Of a stretch of 24,141 nt of DNA, positions 2,048 to 23,166 are shown one piece after another. The first letter of the stretch is position 1. Each line of letters begins with the position of its first letter. The notes below the pieces were generated by a model. It was not told where the DNA came from, ran no database searches, and saw only the letters and a program-made list of their open reading frames with translations. This DNA comes from a virus. Position numbers and translations under genes: made by a program. The stretch is taken from positions 1 to 24,141 of the IMG/VR virus record IMGVR_UViG_3300044971_003060; one strand, given 5' to 3'.

Positions 2048-2059
2048 CCCCTAAAAAAT
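2048..2059. repeat. B-box at the HDAC stop codon
   Basis: CCCCTAAAAAAT flanked by AAGCTT. Read on the minus strand it supplies the TAG stop of the HDAC gene and the AGGGGA before the TTG start of the HTH gene. Confidence 0.8.
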
Positions 2060-3019
2060 CTGAGCTGCTGTAAGCTGATCAGCTGGATCAGTTGTTTTTT
2101 CCGTAACTCCTGAGTAGACAGTCTTTACAACTTCAGCCCAAATTTTTGGTGTGTGCGTGTATGGCTGATAACCACCAGCACCACCAATAAGAACTCTGCC
2201 GTTTGAATACTTGTTTGCAATTTTTGCGATTTGTTTTGCCGCATATGCATAACCTGGGTAATCAAACTGCAAACCACTTAGTGGGTCAGTTTTGTGTGCG
2301 TCTGCACCTGTTGCAAGTAGCACGACATCTGGTTGATACTTGTCTGCAAGTTCAACGATTTCATCTATTGCTTTTGCAAACATTCCATCCCCTGCACCAT
2401 TTGGTAGCGCCCAGTTATAAGCATGGTTTTCTATGTCATGTTCATTACCTGAGAATGGATAGATATCCCTTTGATGTATTGAGCATGTTGGAATATCGGT
2501 ATCCAACAATAACTTTTCAACACCATCACCATGATGTGCATCCCAATCGATGTACATAGGTTTTAGATTAAATCTATGAAACTCTTTTGCTGCGAAAGCC
2601 ATATCGTTAAATACACAGAAACCACTTGAATGGTTGTAGTGAGCATGATGCTTCGCACCTTGAGGATTGAAAGCAACTCTTGCTTCTCCAACTATCATTA
2701 ACTCAGTCAGCCGTGCAGTTCCTGCGAACATTTGCAAAGCCGTAGTTCCTAATTCTTTATTCTTACCTGACCACTCAGATGAAAAGCCTTGTTCTACTAC
2801 ATCATCTACATAATTTTTGTCATGTATTTTGTAGAGGTCTTCTTTGTCATAGTCCTTAACTGATGGTTCAATTTGTTCTATGCGGCCTGATTCTAGAGCT
2901 TCCCCTAAAAAATTTACAGCAAGAAGAGCTCTGTCTGGGTTAGTTGGGTGACCTTCACCTAACTGCCAATTCAGATACTCATTGCCGTATGCAATAAATA
3001 GTTTGTCATTCGTTTTCAA
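2051..3019 (-). CDS. Histone-deacetylase-family (AcuC/APAH-like) Zn hydrolase
   Basis: 322 aa, close to the usual length for bacterial HDAC-like proteins. All catalytic features are visible: the His pair in GAKHHAH (H124, H125), metal ligands in YIDWDAHHGDG (D160, H162) and GADAHKTDP (D240), and the transition-state Tyr in GGAGGYQPY (Y284). The family removes acetyl groups from lysines, polyamines or similar amides. The start is TTG at 3019, overlapping the phosphatase stop by 14 nt, so translation is probably coupled. A B-box lies in frame inside the gene (codons for NFLG, residues 36-39) and another forms its stop. The substrate is unknown; host protein deacetylation or acetyl-polyamine metabolism are the obvious options. 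Confidence 0.85.
   Translation of the reverse strand: MKTNDKLFIAYGNEYLNWQLGEGHPTNPDRALLAVNFLGEALESGRIEQIEPSVKDYDKEDLYKIHDKNYVDDVVEQGFSSEWSGKNKELGTTALQMFAGTARLTELMIVGEARVAFNPQGAKHHAHYNHSSGFCVFNDMAFAAKEFHRFNLKPMYIDWDAHHGDGVEKLLLDTDIPTCSIHQRDIYPFSGNEHDIENHAYNWALPNGAGDGMFAKAIDEIVELADKYQPDVVLLATGADAHKTDPLSGLQFDYPGYAYAAKQIAKIANKYSNGRVLIGGAGGYQPYTHTPKIWAEVVKTVYSGVTEKTTDPADQLTAAQIF
2902..2913. repeat. B-box inside the HDAC gene
   Basis: CCCCTAAAAAAT within coding sequence, preceded by GAGCTT as in intergenic copies. On the minus strand it is read as N-F-L-G. Confidence 0.75.
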
Positions 3020-3545
3020 TTAAATCTTTTCCTCTCCAGTTTGCTTCGTTTATCGATAGCAACCATTTTTTGAAATCTTCGTTACACATCACCCATTGAC
3101 TTCTTGCATCCGTAATGGTGCTTAGCGCATGCTCAGCCGTGTAACCTTGTCTTACTAAAACTAATGCGTTCACCAAGCCAGAGCGATTAAGCCCAGCCAA
3201 GCAACGAACTAAAACTCGTTTTCCTTGTTTAAGTTCTTCGTCTACATATTTTGCTAGAAAGAATAAATCTTTAGCAAATACGTCTTTACCTACTTCACCA
3301 TCGTGAAATGGGTAGCGTAGTTCCTTTACCCCCCAGTCGGCAGGGTTTGACCAAGCATGAAGGGTAACGACCGTGTCGAATTCCTCTGTTGTGATGCGAG
3401 GTTCATAATTCGCATCTAAAACTTTCATTCCGATTATGTCGTCGTCGTCAGTTCCCCCTTGCCATAGGTTAGGGGCTACTTCTGTCCATATGTCTTTTGG
3501 GAGGAAATCGTCGTAGTTTGCGTCATCGTATGTTGTTAATGTCAT
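3006..3545 (-). CDS. Dual-specificity / tyrosine-type protein phosphatase
   Basis: 179 aa. The CX5R phosphatase loop is clear: VRCLAGLNRSGLV with C115 as nucleophile and R121 binding phosphate. D82 in FHDGE is a good general acid. The N-terminal LWQGGTDDD motif also occurs in DSP-like proteins of actinobacteria and their phages. It would hydrolyse phospho-Tyr/Ser/Thr in the cytoplasm. ATG at 3545 is preceded by GAGAGG at good spacing. It is the first gene of an operon with the HDAC-like gene, and the overlap suggests the two products are made in step. Target proteins are unknown. Confidence 0.85.
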   Translation of the reverse strand: MTLTTYDDANYDDFLPKDIWTEVAPNLWQGGTDDDDIIGMKVLDANYEPRITTEEFDTVVTLHAWSNPADWGVKELRYPFHDGEVGKDVFAKDLFFLAKYVDEELKQGKRVLVRCLAGLNRSGLVNALVLVRQGYTAEHALSTITDARSQWVMCNEDFKKWLLSINEANWRGKDLIENE

Positions 3546-3564
3546 TATATCCTCTCATTAAAAA

Positions 3565-3594
3565 AGTATAGCATGAACGCTCCGAGCATCCAAA
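3565..3594 (-). promoter_or_regulatory. Putative promoter of the phosphatase/HDAC operon
   Basis: Minus-strand TATACT (3570-3565) with TTTGGA 18 bp upstream. The -35 is poor, so a phage factor or weak basal use is possible. Confidence 0.4.
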
Positions 3595-3607
3595 TCGGGC
3601 GTCTGAG

Positions 3608-3637
3608 TTGACTTGCAGGCTTTGCTAGTGTTATAAT
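3608..3637 (+). promoter_or_regulatory. Leaderless promoter of the ART operon
   Basis: TTGACT (3608-3613), 18-bp spacer, TATAAT (3632-3637). The ATG at 3644 lies 6 nt after the -10, so the mRNA should begin at or next to the start codon. Confidence 0.75.
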
Positions 3638-3643
3638 AGATTT

Positions 3644-3913: not shown

Positions 3914-4551
3914 GTATTAATACAGATAACAGTTTAGAAATGCTCAAGCAATACTCCAATGTAGAACTATGCCCAGAGTTACAGAAATTTGTTGTTGACA
4001 CTGAAATCGGTAAGTACATAAAGCACCCTTTAGTATTCTCACCTCTAGTTTTACCAGGACTTGCGAACCAAATGCTAGAACAAAAAAACAAGCAACTACG
4101 AGAAGCTTTAGATACCAAAAATTTCAGTCGATACGTTTTTCTACACGAAAGACCGTACAGACTCTCGGCATTCAAAGACATCAAACATCAACTAACTGAT
4201 GAGAACTACTGGAAACTTCTGTCAAGCATATGGACTGACACTGAAAACTCACACCAAGACCTAGGCACTTGGAAGAACCTTTTCAAATCTAAGAAAAATC
4301 AAAGGCACAATTTGATGACCGAAGAAGAACTAACAACTATGGAATCTTTAGATGACACGGTAACTATTTTTAGGGGTTGTGTGAAGAACCTTAACGAAGA
4401 CGGTTTGTCTTGGACTCTTGATAGAGAACGTGCAGAGTGGTTTGCTAATAGGTTCGACCAAAAAGGAATTGTCATTGAAAAAGCGATAGGCAAGGAAGAA
4501 ATTGTTGCTTACTTCAGTGGCAGAGGGGAACAAGAAATTATAGTTATTTAA
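3910..4551 (+). CDS. Putative mono-ADP-ribosyltransferase (R-S-E type)
   Basis: 213 aa. The C-terminal third fits an R-S-E ART core: Arg in TIFRG (R155), a STS-like GLSWTLDRERAEWFA (S167, T169) and a terminal GEQEIIVI with the ExE pair E207 and E209. Enzymes of this class transfer ADP-ribose from NAD+ to proteins or nucleic acids; T4 Alt and Mod proteins are known phage examples with host RNA polymerase and ribosomal targets. The N-terminal 140 residues (with HERPYR and YWKLLSSIWTDTE) are alpha-helical and of unknown role. It is translated by ATGA overlap from the preceding gene and its stop overlaps the convergent Ntn peptidase gene by 8 nt. ART function is inferred from motifs. Confidence 0.65.
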   Translation: MSINTDNSLEMLKQYSNVELCPELQKFVVDTEIGKYIKHPLVFSPLVLPGLANQMLEQKNKQLREALDTKNFSRYVFLHERPYRLSAFKDIKHQLTDENYWKLLSSIWTDTENSHQDLGTWKNLFKSKKNQRHNLMTEEELTTMESLDDTVTIFRGCVKNLNEDGLSWTLDRERAEWFANRFDQKGIVIEKAIGKEEIVAYFSGRGEQEIIVI

Positions 4552-5116
4552 CTTCGTGTTTCTGAATAACGGTATTTATTGGTTCCCCAGTTCCTGGGTC
4601 GAGTTGTGCAGCAATTTGAACAGAGTTTTTAACTACAGTCCGTGCAATAGTTAAAGTTCTTTTCTTAGTACTTAACTCTGAAAAAATAGCGCCAAGTGCA
4701 TAACTAGCACCTGAACCTAAAGCATAGATACCTCTAGAGTCTCTAGCCCACTCGTAGTTAGAACCAAGTTCGTAGATAGTTCCATTAACTACAACCATTA
4801 TGTAAGAGTCTTGCTCTCCCTCTTTACCGTAACCATTTTCTTCAAAACAACTTTTTAGTTCAGGTATAAATTTGCTAGTAATAAATTTGTCTAGTTTCTC
4901 ACCAACTTCATTGTTAGTTGGGATTGGTGGTTTGAAAGAGTGAGCCATCAAATTTATAGCTCGCATGTCTCCAGCTGCCCCTAAAAAATATGGACCATTC
5001 TTAACCAGCTTGGGATTATCTTTTGGAAGAAGGTAAAGTCTGTTTTCTTCTGTAACTCTTGAGTCATAACCTATTACAGCCCAACCCTCTCCTTGAATTG
5101 CTGCAAGTGTTGTCAT
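4544..5116 (-). CDS. Proteasome/HslV-like Ntn-hydrolase
   Basis: 190 aa starting MTTLAAIQGEGWAVIGYDSR. Removal of Met exposes Thr2, the expected N-terminal nucleophile of proteasome beta and HslV subunits; D18 in GYDSR and Lys in NPKLVK match the supporting Asp and Lys positions, and LGSGASYALGAI matches the conserved Ser/Gly loop. I chose ATG 5116 because it leaves Thr in position 2 and overlaps the upstream stop as ATGA; an earlier in-frame start (5131) would bury the nucleophile. No ATPase partner of ClpX/HslU type is adjacent. Likely roles are degradation of host or phage proteins, or self-processing. A B-box lies in frame (codons for YFLG). Confidence 0.8.
   Translation of the reverse strand: MTTLAAIQGEGWAVIGYDSRVTEENRLYLLPKDNPKLVKNGPYFLGAAGDMRAINLMAHSFKPPIPTNNEVGEKLDKFITSKFIPELKSCFEENGYGKEGEQDSYIMVVVNGTIYELGSNYEWARDSRGIYALGSGASYALGAIFSELSTKKRTLTIARTVVKNSVQIAAQLDPGTGEPINTVIQKHEVK
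4978..4991. repeat. B-box inside the Ntn peptidase gene
   Basis: A perfect CCCCTAAAAAATAT, preceded by AGCTG. On the minus strand it encodes Y-F-L-G in the same frame as the HDAC copy. Confidence 0.8.
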
Positions 5117-5358
5117 TCGAATGGATTCCAAATATCTTCTCGTAGGACTTCAAATCTTTCTGAATTATGTGAGTTAGTTTTAGAAATGTCTTCGTTTTCT
5201 ATTAACTTATCTAACGACAAGACAGCCGTACAACCACTATCCTCAAACATGATTACTAATTTTGTATCGCCATCAAGTAGGTCGTCAACGATAGCCGTAT
5301 AGAACGGAACTTCGTGCCCATTAGGGTGATAATGGCGCTCAACAATCTTCAGATTCAT
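5113..5358 (-). CDS. Unknown 81-aa protein upstream of the Ntn peptidase
   Basis: ATG at 5358, stop TGA sharing bases with the ATG of the peptidase (ATGA), so the two are translationally coupled. The sequence is acidic and mixed alpha/beta, with VPFYTAIVDDLLDGDTKLVIMF in the first half; no domain is recognised. It could be an adaptor or inhibitor of the peptidase. A leader with two hairpins (5403-5468) lies upstream. Confidence 0.7.
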   Translation of the reverse strand: MNLKIVERHYHPNGHEVPFYTAIVDDLLDGDTKLVIMFEDSGCTAVLSLDKLIENEDISKTNSHNSERFEVLREDIWNPFE

Positions 5359-5402
5359 ACCAAAATTTTATCCCCTAATCCAGAGGTTTATCGGTAGCAA
5401 CA

Positions 5403-5468
5403 CCAGTATCACTTTGAGAGAGGGTAAGTGACACTGGCGCAGGGGGTATTAGGGTGGGTTACCCCCTG
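5403..5468 (-). ncRNA. Double-hairpin structured leader candidate
   Basis: Two stems lie almost back to back: CCAGT-a-TCACTT with AAGTGA-c-ACTGG (5403-5437) and a perfect 9-bp CAGGGGGTA with TACCCCCTG (5440-5468). On the minus strand they sit 45-110 nt before the start of the 81-aa gene, where a regulatory leader would be. No known riboswitch is recognised. The rest of 5359-5683 holds a B-box-like variant and a terminator but no gene that I can support. Confidence 0.5.
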
Positions 5469-5584
5469 TTCCTATGGGCGGAATAATTAAACTCGACGCT
5501 TAACCATAGTAGTAAAAGTGTAATATAAACAAGAAACCTTGATTCTCAAAAAGTGACCGTATGCCGCAACCCAGCTGATCCATC

Positions 5585-5598
5585 CCCCCAAAAAATAT
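5585..5598. repeat. Variant B-box
   Basis: CCCCCAAAAAATAT (C for T at position 5), followed by GTGAAGGCAGCC. The downstream GTGAAGG is shared with the copy at 9092. Confidence 0.6.
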
Positions 5599-5615
5599 GT
5601 GAAGGCAGCCAGGTT

Positions 5616-5658
5616 AAAAACAAAAATACCCTTAGATGTTTTCCATCTAAAGGTATTT
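5616..5658 (-). terminator. Terminator of the GQYH-family gene
   Basis: AAATACC/GGTATTT and TTAGATG/CATCTAA pair with one central mismatch. The minus strand continues with a T-rich run (TTTTTGTTTTT). Confidence 0.75.
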
Positions 5659-5683
5659 ATGTCTAGTATTTAAGAAACTAAAG

Positions 5684-6070
5684 TTAGATAGTTTCTAAAA
5701 TTTTTCTTTGTTTCCAACCATCACCATAAGTTTTTACTCTAAAAGCCATTTCCATAGAAATTGCTAATGATTCAGTAATGTCGGTGTAATCCCTTTCAGG
5801 GTTTTCCCCCTTTGGAATGTAAGGAGTGTCGGATTCTTCTGTGTAATCTCCGTACACAACAACTCTGTCTCCAGCCCAATGACCTGACATTGGAGTTGCT
5901 AGTAAGTCACCACCACCTCTTTGTGGAGACGTCATAACCAACAAATAGAGAGCATCTGATAAAGAACCCTGCACATTTAAGTGCTCAAGTTGCTTTGCAC
6001 CCAAACCCAATCCATGTGGATTAACTATTTCTTTCTTGTCTATATTTACTAACGAGTGATATTGTCCCAC
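5684..6070 (-). CDS. Conserved actinophage protein starting GQYH (128 aa)
   Basis: GTG at 6070 is preceded by AAAGGTAGG. The protein begins VGQYHSLVNIDKKEIVNPHG and contains GGGDLL and GHWAGDRVVVYGDY; proteins with an MGQY start and a WAGDR motif occur in actinobacteria and their phages without known function (recalled, not searched). The fold appears alpha/beta with several conserved Gly/Trp positions. It is a single-gene unit with its own promoter and terminator. The function is not known. Confidence 0.7.
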   Translation of the reverse strand: MGQYHSLVNIDKKEIVNPHGLGLGAKQLEHLNVQGSLSDALYLLVMTSPQRGGGDLLATPMSGHWAGDRVVVYGDYTEESDTPYIPKGENPERDYTDITESLAISMEMAFRVKTYGDGWKQRKILETI

Positions 6071-6092
6071 TTTGTCCTACCTTTCTAAATCT

Positions 6093-6121
6093 ATTATAGA
6101 AACTAATAACTAAAAAGTCAA
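6093..6121 (-). promoter_or_regulatory. Promoter of the GQYH-family gene
   Basis: TTGACT, 17 bp, TATAAT on the minus strand. It is directly followed upstream by an A-box inverted repeat (6129-6158). Confidence 0.8.
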
Positions 6122-6128
6122 ATTTTAA

Positions 6129-6211
6129 AAAGTTAGTTCTCGGGAACTAATAACTTTTGCGTGAGCTAGCTGCCAGCTGGAGCTGCCTTCTCCACTTCCC
6201 CTAAAAAATAT
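6129..6211. repeat. Composite repeat island (A-box plus B-box)
   Basis: GGGAACTAATAACTTT (A-box) with a shortened inverted copy, AAAGTTAGTTC, on its left side, then AGCT-rich sequence, then CCCCTAAAAAATAT at 6198-6211. No gene is seen here. Confidence 0.75.
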
Positions 6212-6228
6212 TTCGTCTTCGGCCGCAA

Positions 6229-6255
6229 AAAAATAAACCCGAGCGATTGCTCGGG
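6229..6255 (-). terminator. Terminator of the 74-aa gene
   Basis: CCCGAGC/GCTCGGG with a 4-nt loop, followed on the minus strand by TTTATTTTTTT. Confidence 0.9.
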
Positions 6256-6281
6256 CTTATCTTTGTCGGCGTCTTTACTTT

Positions 6282-6506
6282 TTAATTCAAACCATGACGC
6301 TCTCGGTAGTCTCTAGATTCATCTACAAATCTTTTAACTGAATCGTTTAAGTCAACTATCTGACTTGGTGAGAGTAATGCGCTCATTACTCCAGTTAGGT
6401 GGGCATACATACTGCCCGTGTTGCCGTAATGTGCTTCAAGCAACTCTTTGCACTCATCTAGCAAGTCCCATTTAACTTGGCTAGTTACCTCTTTTAATGT
6501 TTCCAT
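6282..6506 (-). CDS. Unknown 74-aa helical protein
   Basis: The start is placed at ATG 6506 (METLKEVTSQ) because a -10 box ends 6 nt upstream, giving a leaderless mRNA; a longer frame to 6545 would translate the promoter. The protein is helical and soluble with no recognised motif. It has its own promoter and terminator. Confidence 0.65.
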   Translation of the reverse strand: METLKEVTSQVKWDLLDECKELLEAHYGNTGSMYAHLTGVMSALLSPSQIVDLNDSVKRFVDESRDYRERHGLN

Positions 6507-7228: not shown

Positions 7229-7372
7229 ATATTTTTTAGGGGAGAGCTGCTTCGCAGCGGCGGCAGGCGGCAGAACTAATAACTTTTTCTTGCGAGCCGC
7301 GCAGCACCTCCACCGCCACCACCACCAACACCACTTCCACCTCGAACTTCCATCTGTCCCCCTAAAAAATAT
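7229..7372. repeat. Composite repeat island
   Basis: Reverse B-box at 7229-7242, GCTGCTTCGCAGC-type hairpins, an A-box (GAACTAATAACTTT at about 7274), CCACC repeats, then a forward B-box at 7359-7372 followed by ACGAAGGTAGCAGC. A 60-codon frame crosses it, but I do not regard it as a gene. Confidence 0.7.
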
Positions 7373-7451: not shown

Positions 7452-7712
7452 TTACCAAGCAGGTGGAACAAATCCACTTGGTGGCTCTGGGGTTTCGTCG
7501 TAAATAATTACTTGACCATCGTGGTTTTCTAGTGTTGAAACGCTGTAGTCCATTTCAATCCCTCGATTACGTTCGTAACTATCTGGCAAATCCGAGATGT
7601 TAAGTTCATCATCAATAACTTTGTTGATGAGTGACTTTGCTTGCTCGTCATCTGCTGCCTCGAACCAAACTTGGTTCATTGAAACTTCATTAAATCTAAA
7701 TGAATATAACAT
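7452..7712 (-). CDS. Unknown acidic 86-aa protein
   Basis: ATG at 7712 follows leader L2; an internal ATG (residue 12, NQVWFEAADDEQAKSL) is also possible. The protein is acidic and ends in a Pro-rich stretch (ETPEPPSGFVPPAW). The form VWFEAADDEQA suggests a small alpha/beta phage protein of the type that monitors or modifies other factors, but no family is recognised. Confidence 0.6.
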   Translation of the reverse strand: MLYSFRFNEVSMNQVWFEAADDEQAKSLINKVIDDELNISDLPDSYERNRGIEMDYSVSTLENHDGQVIIYDETPEPPSGFVPPAW

Positions 7713-8278: not shown

Positions 8279-8332
8279 AAAAAGTTATTTTTTCCTGGGG
8301 CCGCGCCTTCGATCAGTTCCCCTAAAAAATAT
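8279..8332. repeat. Composite repeat (A-box variant plus B-box)
   Basis: AAAGTTATTTTTTCCTGG is a diverged reverse A-box; GATCAGTTCCCCTAAAAAATAT follows with the B-box at 8319-8332. Confidence 0.65.
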
Positions 8333-8440: not shown

Positions 8441-8770
8441 TTATGAAACTTTCATCACTTCTTTAAGTGGTCGAGGAGTCCAATACAAATCTCTCTCAAC
8501 TGCTGGTACTTCCGTGCCAAACATTTTTGTTGTTACTTTGTCTAGTTCGGAAAGACTGAAAGTTCCTAGTTCGTTCTCGAAACCCTCAACATACCCGAAG
8601 AAGACATCCTTGCCATCAAACTCGGTGGCGTACCAAGTCCAATTAGAGTACGGGCTAAAGAATTTCACCTGTACTACTGCGTCCAAGCCTTTTTCTTCTT
8701 GCGAATAAAGGTCTGGCATTTTTTCTATGAGTTCCTTGGTCATTAGTTTATGACCTCTTAAATTACTCAC
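8441..8770 (-). CDS. DUF2958-family protein
   Basis: 109 aa matching the DUF2958 pattern by eye: TKELIEKMPDLYSQE, VQVKFFSPYSNWTWYATEFDG, FFGYVEGFENELGTFSLSELD, and ERDLYW near the end. This family occurs on phages and plasmids beside DNA-handling genes and has no established activity. Two starts are plausible: GTG 8770 (with GAGAGGT upstream) and ATG 8743 (with AGAGGT upstream); the family normally starts close to TKEL, which favours 8743. Confidence 0.8.
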   Translation of the reverse strand: MSNLRGHKLMTKELIEKMPDLYSQEEKGLDAVVQVKFFSPYSNWTWYATEFDGKDVFFGYVEGFENELGTFSLSELDKVTTKMFGTEVPAVERDLYWTPRPLKEVMKVS

Positions 8771-9032: not shown

Positions 9033-9057
9033 AAAATTTCCCTCTCTTTCTACTTCT

Positions 9058-9087
9058 ATAATACCACGAAATAAGTTCTTGCCGCAA
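9058..9087 (-). promoter_or_regulatory. Promoter with a B-box directly upstream
   Basis: TTGCGG, 18 bp, TATTAT on the minus strand. A B-box (9092-9105) begins 4 bp beyond the -35. Confidence 0.65.
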
Positions 9088-9091
9088 GCTT

Positions 9092-9240
9092 CCCCTAAAA
9101 AATATGTGAAGGTAGCTGATCTCCAGCTCCCAGGCAGCTCTAGAAATTAAAGTTATTTGTTTAGCTGCAGGTGTAGCTGCAGGTGCAGCTCTAATTCCCC
9201 TAAAAAATATTTAAGCTCCCAGGCAGCTCGAGCTCGCTGC
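9092..9240. repeat. Composite repeat island with two B-boxes
   Basis: B-boxes at 9092-9105 and 9197-9210 flank AGCT-rich sequence with short tandem units (AGCTGCAGGTGT, AGCTGCAGGTGC) and two copies of CTCCCAGGCAGCTC. The region 9033-9291 has no supported gene. Confidence 0.75.
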
Positions 9241-9245
9241 ACATG

Positions 9246-9282
9246 AAAATACCCCGCGTGCCAAGTTTCAGCACACGGGGCA
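9246..9282 (-). terminator. Terminator of the 82-aa gene
   Basis: A 12-bp stem, TGCCCCGTGTGC with GCACGCGGGGTA on the minus strand. Two G-U pairs exist only in the minus-strand RNA, so that is the functional strand. Confidence 0.8.
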
Positions 9283-9291
9283 TTTAGTTAT

Positions 9292-9540
9292 TTAGTTGAC
9301 CGCAAACACTTTGGTGTTACGAGCGTATCGAACTAAGACTTTGATTCCAAGTCGCTCCGCATCAGATTTATTTAGATACGAACCGCTTCTAGAATCTTTG
9401 AAGTCTTTGTTATCGCGCCAGTCTGCTTTTATCTCAGACTGATTCTTGTAATCCCTGCCGTATGCTGGAACCGCTTCAATGTAATTCACTGTTTTTACTA
9501 CCTCACTTTCATTTACTAGATTACCAGACATCACTGACAA
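9292..9540 (-). CDS. Unknown 79-82-aa protein
   Basis: The frame begins TTG at 9540 or ATG at 9531 (MSGNLVNESEVVKTVNY). It contains DYKNQSEIKADWRDNKDFKD and a basic end with VLVRYARNTKVFAVN. It is a single unit with a strong terminator. A -10-like TATAGT lies just upstream. It is divergent from the + strand cluster at 9587. No family is recognised. Confidence 0.6.
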   Translation of the reverse strand: MSVMSGNLVNESEVVKTVNYIEAVPAYGRDYKNQSEIKADWRDNKDFKDSRSGSYLNKSDAERLGIKVLVRYARNTKVFAVN

Positions 9541-9932: not shown

Positions 9933-10130
9933 ATGAAAGATAACAATAAAGCAAGTGAATACGGATACCAAGCCCTTATGGGTACCATCTTCGGAACTGG
10001 TTATAAACAGCCAGTAGACGAAAACCCGATAGTACAAAAGCGTCGCGCTGAATGGTTGCACGAACATTTAACAGATGATGAAATCTGGGAAATTTACGAC
10101 ACCCTAAAGTGGCAGCAGGAAATGAAATGA
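9933..10130 (+). CDS. Unknown 65-aa protein
   Basis: ATG at 9933, stop TGA at 10128-10130. The second half (VQKRRAEWLHEHLTDDEIWEIYDTLKW) is strongly helical and amphipathic; the first half is Gly/Asn-rich. No domain is recognised. It is followed by the 64-aa gene, whose ribosome-binding site overlaps this stop. Confidence 0.65.
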   Translation: MKDNNKASEYGYQALMGTIFGTGYKQPVDENPIVQKRRAEWLHEHLTDDEIWEIYDTLKWQQEMK

Positions 10131-10144
10131 GGAAAAACCAAACC

Positions 10145-10339
10145 GTGAAAATTTATAGAGTATCCTTCGTTGGAAAATACGGTGAAGCAGATGTTCTCGT
10201 TGAGAGTAACATCAACCATCTAGATGAAGAAACGTCAAACATTATTATTGACGAAGGCATCAAGATTGGTTATCAAATACACGGAACAGACTTCCGTGAT
10301 CGTTTAGACACTTACGCGATTACCGCGATGCCTGCCTAA
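10145..10339 (+). CDS. Unknown 64-aa protein
   Basis: I place the start at GTG 10145 (VKIYRVSFVGKYGEADVL), because the preceding ATGAGGAAAAACCAAACC matches the initiation region of the gene at 9665. A longer frame from ATG 10109 would read through that site. The protein looks like a small beta-alpha-beta domain (DEETSNIIIDEGI). A strong terminator follows. Confidence 0.65.
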   Translation: MKIYRVSFVGKYGEADVLVESNINHLDEETSNIIIDEGIKIGYQIHGTDFRDRLDTYAITAMPA

Positions 10340-10350
10340 TCAAATAAAAG

Positions 10351-10388
10351 TTACCCCTCGTAGAAATACGGGGGGTAATTTTTTTTTC
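10351..10388 (+). terminator. Strong terminator ending the + strand cluster
   Basis: TTACCCCTCGT pairs with ACGGGGGGTAA, then nine T. Confidence 0.9.
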
Positions 10389-10409
10389 GTGTGCCGTAGC
10401 AGCTGGAAA

Positions 10410-10504
10410 ATATTTTTTAGGGGGAGGAGCTGATGCGCAGCTCGGAACCAAAAGTTTTTACTTTAGCTGCGCGAACTAGCTGCAACACTTCCCCTAAAAA
10501 ATAT
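10410..10504. repeat. Composite repeat with opposed B-boxes
   Basis: A reverse B-box (10410-10423) and a forward B-box (10491-10504) enclose AGCT-rich sequence and a diverged A-box (AAAAGTTTTTACTTT). This is the only clear inverted pair of B-boxes on this small scale besides 7229/7359. Confidence 0.7.
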
Positions 10505-10511
10505 CTCAAGT

Positions 10512-10559
10512 AAAAAATGACCCCGAGCCCGTTTCCCACAAAAAGCTCGGAGTCATTTT
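10512..10559 (-). terminator. Terminator of the CxxC/HxxC gene
   Basis: 15-bp stem AAAATGACTCCGAGC with GCTCGGGGTCATTTT as read on the minus strand, followed by TTAC. The wobble pairs favour the minus strand. Confidence 0.8.
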
Positions 10560-10561
10560 GG

Positions 10562-10607
10562 TTTAACGGCAAGAGAGAAAGGGGAAATTTGTATTCTTGC
10601 CGTTAAA
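10562..10607. repeat. Perfect 13-bp inverted repeat
   Basis: TTTAACGGCAAGA (10562-10574) and TCTTGCCGTTAAA (10595-10607) with a 20-nt A/G-rich loop. It lies 4 nt from the stop of the gene at 10611-10856, in tandem with a terminator. Confidence 0.75.
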
Positions 10608-10610
10608 GTT

Positions 10611-10856
10611 TTATTGTGGAACTGGAAATCCACCTGTCATAATTTCCCAACACGCTGGGTGCGTGCCTGAAACAATTTGCTCGCGCAAAGTTTTATCTAA
10701 GTCGGGGAAAGCATCTTGAATTAGCGCACCGATTTGTCTTGCCATAAATCCGATTGCTGGAACTTCAACTTCACCCTCTTGACTACAAATACCACAAACT
10801 GGCGTTCTCATCAAAACTGTTTGCTTTTCAAATATTTCTGTGACATCTTTTGTCAT
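10611..10856 (-). CDS. Phage zinc-finger-like protein (CxxC, HPxC)
   Basis: 81 aa. CGIC (C21, C24) and HPAC (H66, C69) make a likely Zn site. The segment AFPDLDKTLREQIVSGTHPACWE resembles a conserved actinophage hypothetical family (recalled, not searched). ATG at 10856 has a good GAGGTGGG ribosome-binding site and a consensus promoter. Function unknown. Confidence 0.75.
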   Translation of the reverse strand: MTKDVTEIFEKQTVLMRTPVCGICSQEGEVEVPAIGFMARQIGALIQDAFPDLDKTLREQIVSGTHPACWEIMTGGFPVPQ

Positions 10857-11117: not shown

Positions 11118-11276
11118 TTACCATCTCTTTCTGTTTATGTGCTTGCCCTTGTTGGCATAGTCAAAAATAGTTATTATAATAGTTATTGTTATTAAAGTAA
11201 AACCTATAAAGACAAGACCCGTTTCAAAATAGCTTAAATCGGGCAGCATCTTTTCCCCTAAAAAATAATCTTTCAT
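11118..11276 (-). CDS. Single-pass small membrane protein (43-52 aa)
   Basis: The long form starts at ATG 11276 (MKDYFLGEKM); the first codons lie in a B-box. An internal ATG at 11249 is preceded by AGGGGAAA from the B-box at ribosome-binding distance and gives 43 aa (MLPDLSYFETGLVFIGFTLI), which I consider equally likely. The middle is a clean membrane segment rich in Ile/Thr, with a basic tail (KGKHINRKRW) likely cytoplasmic. It is between two genes of the same operon. Confidence 0.6.
   Translation of the reverse strand: MKDYFLGEKMLPDLSYFETGLVFIGFTLITITIIITIFDYANKGKHINRKRW
11255..11268. repeat. B-box at the start of the small membrane gene
   Basis: CCCCTAAAAAATAA. Read on the minus strand it encodes Y-F-L-G and also provides AGGGGA before an internal ATG. 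Confidence 0.7.
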
Positions 11277-13063: not shown

Positions 13064-13093
13064 TTCTTTGCTCGGGGAAGGTTTGCTTGCCGT

Positions 13094-13179
13094 AAAAAAA
13101 AAATGAACCTGCTAGACGCGAGTGGACACTACTCGCTGGAAGGACGAATACCCAAAGAAAGGGTCTCACGCCTAGCAGG
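13094..13179 (-). ncRNA. Three-way-junction RNA ending in a T10 tract
   Basis: Outer stem CCTGCTAG/CTAGCAGG (13108-13115, 13172-13179) encloses two hairpins: GCGAGT/ACTCGC (13118-13136) and ACCC/GGGT (13150-13164). On the minus strand the outer stem is followed by TTCA and ten T. It lies directly after the VWA gene and probably terminates it. The inner hairpins are more than a terminator needs, so a stable 3' RNA may be released. Confidence 0.6.
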
Positions 13180-13192
13180 AACTCTATTAAGG

Positions 13193-14968
13193 TTAAGGGG
13201 CAACCGATGCTTTTTGTAGCGCCTTGCCTGCCGCTTTACCAATTTCTGTGGCAACTTCTGCTGGATTAACTGTACCCGACAAAACTACTGCACCTGTGTT
13301 GTTACACAACTTTTGTGCATAATAATCTTGGTGGATTGGAATAAACAACACTCCAACGCCTGACTTAGCGCACTCCTGTACCCAACGCAAAGCCTTTTCT
13401 GCCTCGACTCTTTTGTAGTTAGCGTCACTAACAACAACTAATAATCTTGCACCTCGACCACCGAGTAAATTAAGGTTTCCATTTAACGCCTTAAATCCTC
13501 TGTCAAACTGTTCAGTATTATCAACTGCTGAATAAGTTGTCACATTATCCAACTTCTGACCTACTCGTAAAGTTGGGAATACAGAATTTCCAAAGTAAAC
13601 CATAGAAACTTTACCTTGTACTCTTCTAACTGCTTCACTCATAATCCACGCTGTTGAAGCCATTGGTCCCATGGCAGGGTGCATTGACCCTGAAATGTCA
13701 ACCATAATTCCTACAGACAAAGTTGGGTCCTCTGTGTGTTTGCGTATAGTTCTGCGCCACGCTTCGGTAGGAGTGTTAACTCCTCGTTCTTTCATAGCAC
13801 TTGCTTGAACCAAACTACGAGTACGCAATCTTCCTGGAGGAGTTACGCTGTTAATTTCAAACTCGTCACGCTCGCGATATTTTGCGCGTTCAAGTATCTG
13901 TGCAACTTTTACTGCTGCAACTCTTTCGTCAGAGTTAGGTTTTCTAACATCAACTATTACGCTAGAAGTAGAGTTATCTGTTGCAGAAGTTCCGTCTGAA
14001 TAAACTTCTTTTGCAATTTCTGTATGCTCTTCTTCTAACTTTGACCTGTCTTTTCTTCCTTTAACAATTTCTTTCCACTCTTCGTCTTGTTCCATTTCTA
14101 TAACTTCGCTAGTGGAAGAAGTTTCAACTTGGTCTTTAGTTTCTTGTAAAGCTTCTTTTAATGCTTCAACAAACATTTGTTGTAGTTGTTTGTTCTCTTC
14201 ATTATTTTCGCCTTTTTCTTCTTTCTTTTCACGAATAAGTTTTACCCACTCTTTTGCGATTGGATAAGTTAATTCCATATTTGTATCTATAGTGTGTGTC
14301 TGAAACTTTCGGGCAAGTTCAACTAACTTAGAAACTAATTCTGCTCCTAAGAAATCATTAAGAATTTTGCTAAGACTTTCTACTTCTTCTTCAAGTAGAA
14401 CTCCTGCTTCAACTCTTGCTAATACTAAACCAACTAAAAAGGCAGCAGAAGATACAGAAGAAGAGTTCTTAAACTTTTCCTCTGCTTCATCTACAACAAT
14501 TTCCATAGCGCAGGAGCGCAAGAAAGGACGAAAGGTGTTATCAGTTGATAAACCTCTACCCTCAATACGAGATTCTTCTAACAACATTAAAGCGTCAAAC
14601 TCATCTTTATCTGTCAATTCTTCCATGGCTTTTTTAATATCCCACCTAGAGAACCTAGCGTGGAACGCTTCATGCAAGATTGCACCTACAGCTTTTGGAA
14701 ACTCAAACTGATTCTTTCTTTGTGTTAAATCTTTAATTTGTTCTGGTGTTGTTGCATTACCAAAAGCAATACCTACATTTACTTCTATTTCTGCTGTTTC
14801 TGGAATAAAGCATGCAGGGGCAGAACCACCTGCATTAGGTCCTACATAAGCAACTAAGTCGCTTCTTCTAGCAAACTCATTTACTAGAGTTGTTATATTT
14901 GCGCCAACTTTCAACCACTCGCTAGGAGTAACTTGTGCGCGTGTTTCATTTAATTTAATGTGTCCCAT
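13193..14968 (-). CDS. VWA-domain protein with N-terminal HExxH region
   Basis: 591 aa. The C-terminal part (about 415-585) is a von Willebrand A domain: MIDAS motif DISGS (D424, S426, S428), T/S-rich strand around 478, and VVVSD (D515). The N-terminal part has HEAFH (H99-H103) with EESRIEGR (131-138) downstream, a pattern found in VWA proteins related to metallopeptidases (DUF2201/CobT-like); zinc binding is plausible but proteolysis is not shown. A long acidic linker runs from about 245 to 345. The gene follows a MoxR AAA+ ATPase gene, its usual partner, and has its own promoter. Such pairs act as metal-insertion or complex-remodelling chaperones. The role in the phage is unknown. Confidence 0.85.
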   Translation of the reverse strand: MGHIKLNETRAQVTPSEWLKVGANITTLVNEFARRSDLVAYVGPNAGGSAPACFIPETAEIEVNVGIAFGNATTPEQIKDLTQRKNQFEFPKAVGAILHEAFHARFSRWDIKKAMEELTDKDEFDALMLLEESRIEGRGLSTDNTFRPFLRSCAMEIVVDEAEEKFKNSSSVSSAAFLVGLVLARVEAGVLLEEEVESLSKILNDFLGAELVSKLVELARKFQTHTIDTNMELTYPIAKEWVKLIREKKEEKGENNEENKQLQQMFVEALKEALQETKDQVETSSTSEVIEMEQDEEWKEIVKGRKDRSKLEEEHTEIAKEVYSDGTSATDNSTSSVIVDVRKPNSDERVAAVKVAQILERAKYRERDEFEINSVTPPGRLRTRSLVQASAMKERGVNTPTEAWRRTIRKHTEDPTLSVGIMVDISGSMHPAMGPMASTAWIMSEAVRRVQGKVSMVYFGNSVFPTLRVGQKLDNVTTYSAVDNTEQFDRGFKALNGNLNLLGGRGARLLVVVSDANYKRVEAEKALRWVQECAKSGVGVLFIPIHQDYYAQKLCNNTGAVVLSGTVNPAEVATEIGKAAGKALQKASVAP

Positions 14969-15058: not shown

Positions 15059-16147
15059 CTAAATCTTGGCAGGTCTGCACTCTTCGCCAAACACTCGAGT
15101 TAGGACATCAGCCACTAAAGGTCTGTCCAACTCAGGTGAGGACGCGAGCAAGTTTGAAATTGCAAAGTCAGTTCCAAACTCATTGTTGATATCACGAAAC
15201 GCAAGAAGTTCTCGCATTTGTGGTGCCCAAGAAGTTTCGCCTGAACTTTGTTTCTTAGATAGGTTTTGTGCAGCAGTAACTAAAGTTGTTGGTACACCTA
15301 ACTTGCGAGCAAGGTCCCAATCAGTTGTCATTTCTGCTTGCAAAGTGAAACGAGAAACTAATGCTTCACTTAATCTAACTCCTGGAGCATTTGGATTAGT
15401 TGCAGCAACCACAAAGAAATTGGGGTCTGCTTTAACTATTGGTCTTTCAGGATTCGCATTGACTTTTAATTCTCTGCGTCCGTCCATTAGTCCGTAAAGT
15501 ACAGATAAAACTTTCGGGTCAATCAAACCAATTTCATCAACAAAGTAAACGCCACCATTTTCTGCAGCTTTTACTAAATCTCCGTCAATCCACTCGAAAC
15601 CACCACTAGGAGTTTGTACATAACCACCAACTAAATCAGCGACTTCTGTATCACCTGTTCCCATGAGTGTGTAAACTCCACCCTCTTGTTCTGCAAACGC
15701 AGCCTCGATAAGTGCAGTTTTACCTGTTCCTGGCGCACCATAAAGCATGGTAAACATTGGTGAACCAATACTTTCAGAGAAATACTTTTGTGTTGCTTCT
15801 CTTGCTTTGCGTAGTGCAGAAACATCTTGAAAGTTTCCCCACTTGCGAGCATGATACTTATCGCCATTTGGACGAATATAAATATCTTCCTGAGAAGTTT
15901 CATCAAGTGCAACAACTGTTTTTCTCACAGCTCTTGGTTTGCGTGCTTCACCTGACGCTCTTTCTATAAATCTTCCGTAAGGCGTAACATCTGAGTTAAG
16001 TCTTAGTTGTGCTTCAACATCAAGTTTCTGAGTTGTTACATCAACTAGCATTTCCCAAAGGGTACGACTAACTAATGGTTGTTCAAAAGTTGCAACACCA
16101 CTAGGACCTAACTCTTTTAATTTATCTTTTAATTCTTCGTTGTTCAT
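15059..16147 (-). CDS. MoxR-type AAA+ ATPase
   Basis: 362 aa. Walker A GAPGTGKT (137-144), Walker B VYFVDE (200-205), sensor-1 AATNPN (249-253), and a SRF arginine (R266) are all visible; the helix between GTGD and EVADLVGGYV matches MoxR proteins. It would form a hexameric ATPase working with the VWA partner encoded next. ATG at 16147 is preceded by GTGAGGAAAAT. The gene upstream (16173-16685) is probably the third component. No other AAA+ gene is seen in the window. Confidence 0.9.
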   Translation of the reverse strand: MNNEELKDKLKELGPSGVATFEQPLVSRTLWEMLVDVTTQKLDVEAQLRLNSDVTPYGRFIERASGEARKPRAVRKTVVALDETSQEDIYIRPNGDKYHARKWGNFQDVSALRKAREATQKYFSESIGSPMFTMLYGAPGTGKTALIEAAFAEQEGGVYTLMGTGDTEVADLVGGYVQTPSGGFEWIDGDLVKAAENGGVYFVDEIGLIDPKVLSVLYGLMDGRRELKVNANPERPIVKADPNFFVVAATNPNAPGVRLSEALVSRFTLQAEMTTDWDLARKLGVPTTLVTAAQNLSKKQSSGETSWAPQMRELLAFRDINNEFGTDFAISNLLASSPELDRPLVADVLTRVFGEECRPAKI

Positions 16148-17083: not shown

Positions 17084-17097
17084 CCCCTAAAAAATAT
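17084..17097. repeat. B-box upstream of a -35
   Basis: Perfect CCCCTAAAAAATAT. Together with copies at 9092 and 13007 it defines a position 3-5 bp upstream of -35 boxes. Confidence 0.85.
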
Positions 17098-18693: not shown

Positions 18694-18717
18694 TTAGTTC
18701 CTCTCTTTCTAATCTCT

Positions 18718-18746
18718 ATAATAGCATTTGACAAAAATAATGTCAA
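18718..18746 (-). promoter_or_regulatory. Consensus promoter (TTGACA-17-TATTAT)
   Basis: The spacer contains TTGTCA only 5 bp from the -10; TTGACA and TGTCAA form an inverted repeat. Confidence 0.8.
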
Positions 18747-18756
18747 GACTGACTGA

Positions 18757-18905
18757 AGGTTTCGGGAACTAATAACTTTCTAGTAACGCGTACAGCTGCT
18801 GTGAGGGGTAGGAGGCCAGACTTGTTTCCCAGGCTGGGAACTAATAACTTTCGCGTAACGCCGCAGCTGACCAAGCTGTTCCCCTAAAAAATATTTTTTA
18901 AGGGA
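18757..18905. repeat. Composite repeat with two A-boxes and a palindromic B-box
   Basis: Two copies of GGGAACTAATAACTTTC lie about 76 bp apart, each followed by TAACGC and an AGCTG segment. The B-box at 18881-18894 continues into TTTTTTAAGGG, making an almost complete palindrome. TTCCCAGGCTGGGAA lies between the A-boxes. No gene is seen in 18694-18992. Confidence 0.8.
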
Positions 18906-18942
18906 GCTGATCCGCAGCTGGAAAATACAAGTTGTTTTTTCT

Positions 18943-18976
18943 CAAAAAAATAAAACCCCCCAGTTTCCTAGGGGGT
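18943..18976 (-). terminator. Terminator of the zinc-ribbon gene
   Basis: ACCCCC/GGGGGGT followed on the minus strand by TTTATTTTTTT. Confidence 0.85.
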
Positions 18977-18992
18977 CTTATTACTTCACGGG

Positions 18993-20965: not shown

Positions 20966-20986
20966 ATTTCCTCTTTTCTATAACAA

Positions 20987-21014
20987 AGATAACATGTTAG
21001 TAAATTTATGTCAA
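20987..21014 (-). promoter_or_regulatory. Promoter of the WHVGG gene
   Basis: TTGACA, 16 bp, TTATCT. Confidence 0.6.
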
Positions 21015-21179
21015 ATCGGGGGATGGTAGGCGGGACTGCGCGATACCTGGGAAGTTAATCAATTTAAAAAACAACTGCGAGTTCTACCTGCAGAAAAAGC
21101 TTTACGAACCCTGGTGAGTAAAGTTATCCTACCCAATCCGTCAAGTAAAAGTCAAGTATTTATTTAATTATTTAGATCC

Positions 21180-21463
21180 GATCCATCCAGGTCAGCTGGT
21201 ATATAGCTCTAATTAAAAAGTTATTACTTCCTGCGATTGGATCCAATCCCTGGTTTACTTGCATTTTTCGATCCGTCTTCTAGTTTTAAAAAGTTATTAG
21301 TTCCCGTGGATGGATCAGCTCGGATCCGTTCCCCTAAAAAATATAGGGCTCGCTTACGCGCACGCCGTTCTTTCCCAGGCCGCTTAGCTCCGTTCCCCTA
21401 AAAAATATTAAAGGTTCCCGTTGTTGCATAATGTGAAACACGATCCGTTCCCCTAAAAAATAA
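21180..21463. repeat. Gene-poor island with three B-boxes and GATCC repeats
   Basis: B-boxes at 21331-21344, 21395-21408 and 21450-21463, each preceded by CCGTT; two of the three show GATCCGTT. Reverse A-boxes (AAAGTTATTACTTCC at about 21217, AAAGTTATTAGTTCCC at about 21287) and several GATCC units precede them. Positions 20990-21516 contain no gene I can support. Confidence 0.8.
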
Positions 21464-21516
21464 CTTCCCTGTTCGCAGGCCGCTTTTTCATAAAATCCAA
21501 TAGACTGGTTCTTCTA

Positions 21517-21590: not shown

Positions 21591-21748
21591 CATAAGCTAC
21601 ACCTTATGCAAACTACACTTCCCTATTGAATCCGTTATAAATGTGTACATGGGCAGGCCGCTTTCCATACACCCTTAGTTTTAAGTCTGTACGGTTTTTC
21701 TTTATAATGAACCGTGCACCTGGGAGGGGCTATATAGCTAGGAAAGGG

Positions 21749-21798
21749 AAGTTATTAGTTCCTGCGAAGGCGCAGGCCGTTTTTCCCCTAAAAAATAT
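21749..21798. repeat. Composite repeat at a gene end
   Basis: Reverse A-box AAGTTATTAGTTCC (about 21750) and B-box at 21785-21798. The B-box supplies the TAG stop of the 33-aa gene. Confidence 0.75.
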
Positions 21799-21889
21799 TT
21801 TTATGGCCAAAGATAGAATCTAGGACATCTTCGTACTGGTAAGGGTCGTAGTCCGTTTCCTTTGTACAGTTTCCGTCTTTAAGTCCCAT
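21788..21889 (-). CDS. Acidic 33-aa microprotein
   Basis: ATG at 21889 with GGAG 8 nt upstream. The sequence (MGLKDGNCTKETDYDPYQYE, then DVLDSIFGH) is acidic and Tyr-rich. Its stop (IF-TAG) is built by a B-box in the same way as at the HDAC end. Existence is plausible but not certain. Confidence 0.45.
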   Translation of the reverse strand: MGLKDGNCTKETDYDPYQYEDVLDSIFGHKNIF

Positions 21890-21927
21890 GCCGTTTCTCC
21901 GATTTGACAAATGGTAGTTTATTAATT

Positions 21928-21949
21928 AGACTGTTGATAACAACTGTCT
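21928..21949. promoter_or_regulatory. Operator-like inverted repeat
   Basis: AGAC-T-GTTG-ataa-CAAC-T-GTCT: 8 paired positions with a symmetric central mismatch. It lies between the 65-aa gene stop and the putative promoter of the 33-aa gene (minus TTGTTA, 16 bp, TAAACT), so it could be an operator or a weak terminator. Confidence 0.5.
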
Positions 21950-21959
21950 AATATATAAA

Positions 21960-22157
21960 CTACTTGTTTTCAGATTCTCCTAATACATAACCGTATAACT
22001 CTAAAGCCTTGTTAGCCCTAGCCGTTACTCGAACATGTTCTTCACGGTGGGTGGCTAGTCTGATATCCGATTGAAGTTCTTCAGCAAGCTCTCTTGCCAG
22101 ATCTACCAGGTACAAAGAAGAGTTGTTACTTCCCGTGCCGTCATCTAAGTTGTTCAT
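21960..22157 (-). CDS. Helical 65-aa protein after the terminase-like gene
   Basis: ATG at 22157 lies 7 nt after the upstream stop; a longer frame into that gene is rejected because of the 100-nt overlap. The protein (SLYLVDLARELAEELQSDIR, then THREEHVRVTARANKALELY) is a charged helical hairpin. Phage packaging regions often carry such small helical proteins; no family assigned. Confidence 0.65.
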   Translation of the reverse strand: MNNLDDGTGSNNSSLYLVDLARELAEELQSDIRLATHREEHVRVTARANKALELYGYVLGESENK

Positions 22158-22164
22158 AAGCTGT

Positions 22165-23100
22165 TCAGTCCTTCTTATCTTTCTCTTCATCGGTTGATTC
22201 AGAATCTTCAGTAACAACAATCTCGGCGTCAATAACTCTGTGTTGATCCCCCAAAACTCCAGCAATCATGGTTGCTCCTTCGGCAAGCCGTTGAAGTCTT
22301 TCGGCAACAATCACATGGGCTGGCCGTGAGTCTTGGACATCAATACCGACATCTAACTCCACGCCTCCTCGAACTCCAGCGCGATCCAGAATCTCTGTTG
22401 CCGCTTTAAGGGCGACGGGTTCTGAGATTGCCGTTTCCATAAGTTGTTCAAGTTTGTCCACAGCGTATGGGGCAGCCTGAACAAGTTTGAGTCTTGCCCG
22501 TTCAACGTCAGCTCCAGGACGGCGAATTGTTTTTAGATGGATACGGCAGAGACCGTCATCCTTAATACGACCACTAAACCAAAGCTGGCATCGGATGCCG
22601 TCTGGTTTCACAATGCGGCACCGAGCAGGTAGCCCAAGAGGTGCCCGCTTTGAAGACTTCGGGCCGCCTTGCTCTTGTTCCTTTATGTAGGCGCGAGTAG
22701 CACCGACAACCCAAGGTGGGCAAAGTTTGTAGGCGGCGTCATCTGCCATAAGGTCGACGCCCGTAATGAAATCTGAGTTTGTGTTGTTGGGGTCGGAAAG
22801 AAGAGGTTTCTTTTCGGCAAGTGAAAGTAGACGGCGTTCACGGGACGACTCAATAGAGCGAGCCGCGATTAGCCCAGTTGGGCGGCCAGAGTTGTCATAG
22901 ACAGCGTCCCAGTTAAATTCGTTTCGGCGTAGGAGTTGACGGTTTTCGTAGGTATCCTCACACACACCCTTTTCTATCTCAACGATGCCGATGCGCGAAA
23001 GATCGGGGCGCAAATCCATTGGGTCATCGTGTCTAGGGATTGAGTCCGTTGGGTCAATTTCTTCTGGGTCTGGGCCCAGGAACTCTAATTCGTTGCTCAT
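22165..23100 (-). CDS. Putative terminase small subunit-like protein
   Basis: 311 aa. The centre has ARCRIVKPDGIRCQLWF and GLCRIH, a possible C-x7-C-x13-C-x2-H zinc site (about 160-190). The C-terminal region has LVQAAPYAVDKLEQLMETA and VALKAATEILDRAGVRGG, phrases common in actinophage terminase small subunits that recognise the packaging site. The N-terminus is acidic and Pro-rich, and the tail is very acidic (TEDSESTDEEKDKKD). The large subunit is not in the window. GC content looks higher than in the neighbours, consistent with a structural or packaging core gene. Confidence 0.65.
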   Translation of the reverse strand: MSNELEFLGPDPEEIDPTDSIPRHDDPMDLRPDLSRIGIVEIEKGVCEDTYENRQLLRRNEFNWDAVYDNSGRPTGLIAARSIESSRERRLLSLAEKKPLLSDPNNTNSDFITGVDLMADDAAYKLCPPWVVGATRAYIKEQEQGGPKSSKRAPLGLPARCRIVKPDGIRCQLWFSGRIKDDGLCRIHLKTIRRPGADVERARLKLVQAAPYAVDKLEQLMETAISEPVALKAATEILDRAGVRGGVELDVGIDVQDSRPAHVIVAERLQRLAEGATMIAGVLGDQHRVIDAEIVVTEDSESTDEEKDKKD

Positions 23101-23121
23101 TGAGGGTTTTTCTTTCCTATC

Positions 23122-23166
23122 AAAAAAGCCAAGACTCCCCTAAAAAATATTAAAGGAGCCTCGGCT
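23122..23166 (-). terminator. Terminator with a B-box in its loop
   Basis: AGCCGAGGCTCC pairs with GGAGTCTTGGCT in minus-strand RNA (G-U pairs), then TTTTTTG. The B-box (23137-23150) forms the loop and the start of the 3' arm. Confidence 0.8.
23137..23150. repeat. B-box within a terminator
   Basis: Perfect CCCCTAAAAAATAT. On the minus strand its T6 and GGGG are part of the hairpin. Confidence 0.8.

Follow-up and report, generated by a model that had tools for sequence, protein, structure and literature searches.

A repeated, oriented intergenic box confined to one gene block of an uncultured phage, and differently spelled boxes in its relatives: a putative regulatory site

Cluster-specific motifs repeated in the intergenic gaps of actinophages are already known, often without a known function (PMC3203893, PMC7302621, PMC9302106). 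In the passages of PMC6550527 and PMC9283540 that deal with them, the stoperators of cluster A phages (L5 and its kin) are asymmetric sites of 13-14 bp, present in more than 20 copies in short gaps throughout the genome, set in one main orientation relative to transcription and differing in motif between related phages, and a polar block of read-through is described for them. Start-associated sequences (SAS/ESAS) are reported from cluster K (PMC3203893) and Microbacterium phage cluster EF (PMC7302621), with a second, inverted-repeat box of subcluster-specific sequence beside a subset of them. In cluster M mycobacteriophages, many neighboring genes of one region are described as being separated by CR3/CR4 repeats that have stem-loops upstream of them, and inserted genes there bring associated CR3 copies (PMC7953290). 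Cluster-specific repeated motifs in small gaps are likewise reported from the Microbacterium clusters EC, EG and EI and the Gordonia phage CaiB (cluster DR) (PMC7302621, PMC9302106), those of EC being asymmetric, similarly oriented and placed 21-30 bp before starts (PMC7302621). Here we analyze a dispersed 14-mer, the B-box (CCCCTAAAAAATAT), in the 24,141 nucleotides of the IMG/VR virus record IMGVR_UViG_3300044971_003060 (positions 1 to 24,141, hereafter the window), which is evidently a fragment of a longer genome, and compare it with the boxes of related phages.

At up to three mismatches the B-box had 34 matches in the window against 4.2 expected, a number reached in 0 of 100 shuffles, and at up to one mismatch it had 23 sites, 16 of them exact and seven with a single mismatch. 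Nineteen of these sites lie on the minus strand and four on the plus strand, and the reversed pattern, used as a control, had none. The 12-mer core ATTTTTTAGGGG was found 21 times, with 0.01 expected under a second-order Markov model. A chance origin of the set was rejected on the counts against shuffles, the reversed control and the Markov expectation. Read along the majority minus-strand genes, the box is spelled ATATTTTTTAGGGG, often with AA next to it. An earlier note on this DNA, made from the letters alone, had listed 22 copies with a 12-base core too rare to be due to chance and with one dominant orientation matching minus-strand transcription; all three observations were borne out, the copies all being present at up to one mismatch (the one given as 812r, r marking the minority orientation, starts at 811). 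That note missed a 23rd copy, 18891r (CCCTTAAAAAATAT), which overlaps the copy at 18881 head to head and thereby accounts for the apparent palindrome at 18881-18904. In all, 19 of the 23 boxes are oriented with the dominant strand, and 10410r likewise follows the direction of the plus-strand gene to which it belongs.

The boxes sit preferentially between genes. On a gene list curated by hand, according to which 24% of the window is intergenic, 19 of 23 B-boxes are intergenic (binomial p = 4e-9), in agreement with the earlier note's statement that most copies are. The copies named below are exact and on the minus strand unless stated otherwise. Only two are inside genes, namely 2902-2915 (one mismatch; within gene 2051-3019, possibly a coding coincidence) and 4978-4991 (within the HslV-like gene 4544-5131), and the remaining two non-intergenic copies carry the TAG stop of the gene ending there, 2048-2061 (one mismatch; 5 bp before gene 1816-2043) that of gene 2051-3019 and 21785-21798 that of a 33-amino-acid open reading frame (ORF; 21788-21889). 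Long gaps hold boxes more often than short ones (11 of the 18 gaps of at least 110 bp versus 2 of the 24 shorter ones). Many copies follow a terminator-like hairpin: 5585-5598 (one mismatch) by about 24 nt that of gene 5684-6070, 6198-6211 by about 20 nt that of gene 6282-6506, and 17084-17097 by about 13 nt another, while 7359-7372, 8319-8332, 9197-9210 and 10491-10504 lie past the hairpins of genes 7452-7712, 8441-8770, 9292-9531 and 10611-10856, respectively. The last of these shares the convergent gap 10340-10610 with 10410-10423 (plus strand), which is past the hairpin of the plus-strand gene 10127-10339, so that each gene end in this gap has one box, behind its own gene's hairpin and pointing with its own gene. 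The other intergenic copies are 811-824 (plus strand, one mismatch; reading GTATTTTTTAGGGG on the strand shown and opposed to the flanking genes), 7229-7242 (plus strand; the inverted partner of 7359), 9092-9105, 11255-11268 (one mismatch; between genes 11283-11591 and 11118-11249), 13007-13020 (in the gap that follows the VWA-like gene 13193-14968), the overlapping 18881-18894 and 18891-18904 (the latter on the plus strand with one mismatch), a run of three near a plus-strand tRNA-Met (21331-21344, 21395-21408 and, with one mismatch, 21450-21463), and 23137-23150 (between genes 23177-23476 and 22165-23100). Overall, a terminator-like hairpin was found at 11 of 15 box-bearing gene ends versus 13 of 33 others (one-sided p = 0.03), and at nine of those 11 the first box starts 10-54 nt past the T tract of the nearest hairpin, the exceptions being 13007 (86 nt past it) and 23137 (before it).

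Nine contigs of the same species, at least 99.86% identical to the window over their overlap, add 11.7 kb of sequence to one end and 89.4 kb to the other. Neither extension holds a copy of the core ATTTTTTAGGGG, which is thus missing from 101 kb of flanking same-species DNA, and the 14-mer has one site outside the block at one mismatch, in record G010. Because the core is absent from both extensions, the B-box set is one block of about 22 kb and not a genome-wide network; a stoperator network across the whole phage genome was accordingly rejected. These contigs cover copies of the box in 80 cases, and the 44-bp context matches exactly in 79 of them, with no sign of mobility among strains too close to say much on this point.

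With the AAA ATPase at 15059-16147 as query, 90 loci were retrieved from IMG/VR, of which 80 were kept as the set of relatives (two of them same-species), together with a match at 63.6% in Actinomycetia phage DSL-LC01 and remoter ones in Microbacterium, Gordonia and cyanobacterial phages. The phages to which the block of the window belongs are a large uncultured group related to DSL-LC01. The latter, a circular metagenome-assembled genome of 129 kb obtained from lake water, is, in a statement of its authors, highly likely an actinobacteriophage; the words repeat, intergenic, motif and promoter are absent from the main text of the DSL-LC01 paper. A search for near-identical DNA among named phages gave no match, and when the AAA ATPase was used to look for a host in genome contigs, none of the 32 candidate stretches proved to be a relative. 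The window's own B-box was found at up to one mismatch in nine of 50 records, seven of which are same-species contigs, the others being G013 (two matches) and G031 (one). Many relatives instead have a dispersed, oriented box of their own spelling. The nearest, G013 (73% in the AAA ATPase), has TTGTAAATTTTTTAGG, with 16 sites of TGTAAATTTT, 15 in sense; L082 has TATGTATTTTTTCC, with GTATTTTTTCC in sense at 13 of 13 sites; GGGTAAAAAT in L034 and CAAAAAGTAA in L051 are in one orientation at 30 of 35 (up to one mismatch) and 21 of 23 sites, respectively, and all 20 copies counted in DSL-LC01 are on one strand at 20-50 kb. Box types were assigned by hand to 56 of the 80 relatives, leaving out 24 without a clear single box, and the resulting 19 types on 57 rows fit the AAA tree with 18 changes, the fewest that this number of types allows, on a quick tree whose deep branches are weak. 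We also noted that both orientations occur in L036 for GGGAAATTAT and its mirror, that L040 has TGCTACTAA at 44 sites, and that G003 is dense in 10-mer repeats at 15001-30000 (e.g., 33 copies of CCAGTTGCAC and 27 of CTACAGGTGC in these 15 kb), perhaps, at a guess, in repetitive tail-fibre or collagen-like genes.

Gene-end slots are kept across relatives and the spelling of the box is not. A slot was scored when a lineage's own box lay in sense within 260 nt after the ortholog of a window gene, in 14 relatives whose gene lists consist of long ORFs rather than gene-caller output. Own boxes occupied 32 of 62 slots where the window has a box versus 18 of 99 elsewhere (permutation over genes, p = 0.0002, among lineages that are not independent, L048, L051 and L059 sharing one box). 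All three controls gave low numbers, namely the antisense box (2 of 62 and 5 of 99), the reversed box (3 of 62 and 1 of 99) and another lineage's box (on average 2.0 of 62 and 2.5 of 99). The slot after the VWA-like gene held the lineage's own box in nine of the 14. The earlier note would have been contradicted by copies that are not conserved in relatives; their sequence is mostly not conserved, but their places at gene ends are.

The direction of the boxes, their placement in gaps and the lineage-wise change of spelling together fit a protein-binding site acting on transcription. In our tentative interpretation, to which we give just under an even chance, the B-box is a lineage-specific asymmetric cis-element, a putative regulator site that acts on transcription at the boundaries of units. 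It punctuates one block of mostly small genes. Most copies stand in the long gap that follows a gene end, as a rule beyond a terminator-like hairpin and ahead of the next promoter, and a second motif (the A-box, below) often accompanies them at 23-41 bp. The element would be read as DNA by a phage-encoded or phage-modified regulator. Its fixed direction would suggest a polar effect on RNA polymerase, blocking read-through like a stoperator, more than a role in the core promoter, and a polar block of this kind is the specific function we would prefer. We further speculate that the whole group may share a one-way gap box whose slots are inherited and whose spelling is rewritten in each lineage in step with a putative regulator, that is, a stoperator-like specificity race confined to one small-gene block and yielding a directional insulator between units; we consider this wider scenario rather unlikely.

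Several observations weigh against the regulator-site interpretation. Three window copies (811r, 7229r and 18891r) are oriented the wrong way, and little orientation bias was found in the top motif of L036 (13 of 21) and L040 (26 of 44), where it may have been lost. No repressor was identified for the B-box. The hairpin association in the window fades to a one-sided p of 0.21 when restricted to gaps of at least 60 bp, and for three phages combined it falls from p = 0.003 over all gene ends to p = 0.32 over such gaps. A plain stem detector gave two-sided p values of 0.08 in the window, 0.04 in G013 and 0.03 in L082, and a folding-based one gave one-sided values of 0.03, 0.27 and 0.007, respectively, of which that for G013 is the unfavorable one. 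An association with terminators as an independent rule was rejected, there being no signal once gap length is allowed for. Conserved long gaps could likewise account for part of the slot result. Other adverse points come from relatives and bear on the alternatives as well. In L061, a distance of exactly 17 bp separates TCCGTAAAAA from the TAYAAT downstream of it in all 11 plus-strand copies, which puts it in the place of a -35 element, and one clade including DSL-LC01 has its lineage-specific box joined to the -10 element (e.g., TCTAAAGATGTTATAAT), so that the group need not share one mechanism. In several further relatives the copies overlap a Shine-Dalgarno-like stretch and a start codon (AGGTAAAAATG and similar), and some boxes may therefore be read at the RNA level.

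The fixed spacing in L061 slightly weakens the regulator-site interpretation and slightly strengthens a rival according to which the box is a promoter-linked upstream site for the next gene (UP-like or an activator site), or a displaced -35, used by host polymerase with a phage factor. The joined boxes of the DSL-LC01 clade are in line with this rival, as are three window copies that sit 3-5 bp upstream of a -35, namely 17084 (3 bp) and 13007 (5 bp), both before TTGACA-N17-TATAAT, and 9092 (4 bp before a possible TTGCGG, by eye). The remaining 20 window copies lack such a spacing to a -35 (by eye), however, and the UP-like element proposed in the earlier note thus fits by position only three of 23 sites. 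Moreover, neither of the two boxes in the convergent gap 10340-10610 has a gene downstream in sense, and the promoter-like TGTCA-N11-TATWAT of the block (with N11 in 12 of 13 matches) is an element distinct from the box. The convergent gap and the free spacing to promoters argue against a core promoter element in the window, and we consider a promoter-linked function fairly unlikely. A comparable but slightly lower standing is given to an RNA-level element, U-rich and with AGGGG, serving translation initiation (start-associated) or 3'-end processing. AGGGG resembles a Shine-Dalgarno sequence, the boxes mostly run with transcription, 2048 and 11255 end 5-6 bp before an annotated start, 5585 and 7359 directly precede an ATG (of no annotated gene), and in L031, L034, L036, L038 and L051 the box that follows the VWA-like gene continues into an ATG start codon. 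Yet 2048 and 11255 are the only B-boxes among the 23 whose ends come within 6 bp of an annotated start; wherever else an intergenic copy has an annotated sense gene downstream, at least 37 bp separate it from the start of that gene, a distance that argues against a start-associated sequence in the window; many copies lie past a terminator-like hairpin, where RNA should be scarce, and the G run flanks the A/T tract on one side in the window and on the other side in L034.

Two further alternatives are very improbable. A small mobile repeat (MITE- or REP-like, i.e., resembling miniature inverted-repeat transposable elements or repetitive extragenic palindromes) spread in gaps, also raised in the earlier note, could explain the inverted pairs 7229/7359, 10410/10491 and 18881/18891 and the short words common to gaps. 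It is disfavored by the lack of presence/absence differences among the nine same-species contigs (nearly identical strains, with the near-constant context given above), by repeat families that have little in common beyond the box and by relatives that keep the slots with sequences of their own. A site for a host nucleoid or replication protein would suit the A/T tract, five or six letters long, that many boxes have; the confinement to one block in the window's species, the differences in spelling between related phages and the strong orientation bias all speak against it, and we rate it no higher than the mobile repeat.

As for what might bind the box, the helix-turn-helix (HTH) protein encoded at 1816-2043 retains the motif YRTAR in 11 of 12 relatives (YRTARKAI in eight), in a stretch that we read as the putative recognition helix, although the boxes of these relatives differ, which speaks against this protein as the binder. 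A lineage's own box is present at the start of this gene in the window, in L058 (exact) and in L038 (one mismatch), suggesting some link between protein and box; in the other 10 relatives the start of the homolog has no own box (at least two mismatches). Its candidacy as the B-box binder is therefore doubtful. The protein had no match among named phages at E ≤ 0.01, and for a second HTH protein (23915-24118) the relatives searched gave none at E ≤ 1e-5. A search for a tyrosine integrase was negative; G010 has one resolvase-type frame of 231 amino acids. Sigma70_r2, the domain sought as a sign of a phage sigma factor, was absent from the four records searched, with a positive control that matched, and a phage-type single-subunit RNA polymerase gave no match, nor did its positive control. 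Two WhiB matches at 29-30 kb in G010 are possible regulators, with no link to the box.

The A-box (GGAACTAATAACTTT) accompanies many B-boxes. It had 16 matches in the window at up to three mismatches against 1.75 expected. Of the 10 at up to two mismatches, nine have a B-box no more than 110 bp away (background 19%, p = 3e-6); the A-boxes face either way and do not form regular inverted pairs with the B-boxes. Those nine are, on the plus strand, 6143-6157 (0 mismatches; 41 bp from 6198), 7272-7286 (one mismatch; between 7229r and 7359), 13046-13060 (one; 26 bp from 13007), 18765-18779 and 18837-18851 (0 each; 102 and 30 bp from 18881); on the minus strand, 8281-8295 (two; 24 bp from 8319), 21217-21231 (one) and 21290-21304 (0), 100 and 27 bp from 21331, and 21748-21762 (one; 23 bp from 21785). 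A similar pairing was found between the two boxes of L051 (six of nine within 110 bp, at 31-34 bp), and on a recount of gaps by hand the A-box of L034 has about 10 distinct sites, seven of them near the box.

The same block has a motif TGTCA-N11-TATWAT/TACAAT (at 6513, 6987, 7142, 7773, 8794, 9588, 11622, 12458, 16712, 17544, 18018 and 19372), which looks like a block-specific promoter, with 13 matches in the window at N9-13 (0.7 in mononucleotide shuffles), 12 of them at N11. G013 has 11 matches, 10 at N11 (shuffles 0.95), and 89 kb of the same phage as the window have only two (shuffles 3.5). By eye, the TGTCA sometimes forms TGACA-NN-TGTCA with a -35. Short palindromic words are plentiful, again by eye, in the box-holding gaps 5359-5683, 6071-6281, 9035-9291, 18694-18992 and 20966-21516; CAGCTG, CGAGCTCG, AGCTGATC and CAGGCCGC are over-represented in the window, and short palindromic words also head the k-mer lists of L083-L085. 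Downstream of the VWA-like gene, the gap (12967-13192 in the window, and its counterpart in many lineages) appears by eye to keep a segment like CGTCCTTCCAGCG..GTGTCC, possibly as a conserved RNA structure. An RNA-family search returned only two tRNAs at the gathering threshold. Genes for histone-deacetylase-like (2051-3019), dual-specificity-phosphatase-like (3006-3545) and HslV-like (4544-5131) proteins lie close together in the window.

This group offers many related lineages with differently spelled boxes at shared gene ends, a natural series in which the reader protein could be sought among DNA-binding proteins, by changes of the recognition surface that parallel those of the box. Under the regulator-site interpretation, the group would in addition be an example of an oriented, repeated regulatory site that does not form an immunity network across the genome. 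The boxes of the DSL-LC01-related group were not found described in the open-licence literature, and their likeness to described systems, as far as the published descriptions cited above extend, is partial in each case. With stoperators, as the earlier note had suggested, the B-box shares asymmetry, a length of about 13-14 bp, more than 20 copies (23 sites), a place in gene gaps, one main orientation and a motif that diverges with phage lineage (19 types, 18 changes), and it differs from them in being confined to one block, in having no repressor found, in its A-box partner and in lying often past a terminator-like hairpin. Start-associated sequences are likewise asymmetric and oriented, with a second box that is perhaps comparable to the A-box, and start-overlapping copies occur in L034, L038, L051 and others, whereas only two of 23 window B-boxes adjoin an annotated start and most are behind gene ends. 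The motifs of clusters EC, EG and EI and of CaiB are similar as cluster-specific repeats in small gaps, those of EC also in being asymmetric and similarly oriented, but those of EC, EG and CaiB are close to starts, and turnover at conserved slots does not figure in their descriptions. The CR3/CR4 repeats of cluster M are, by description, alike in separating many genes of one region and possibly in having a stem-loop upstream.

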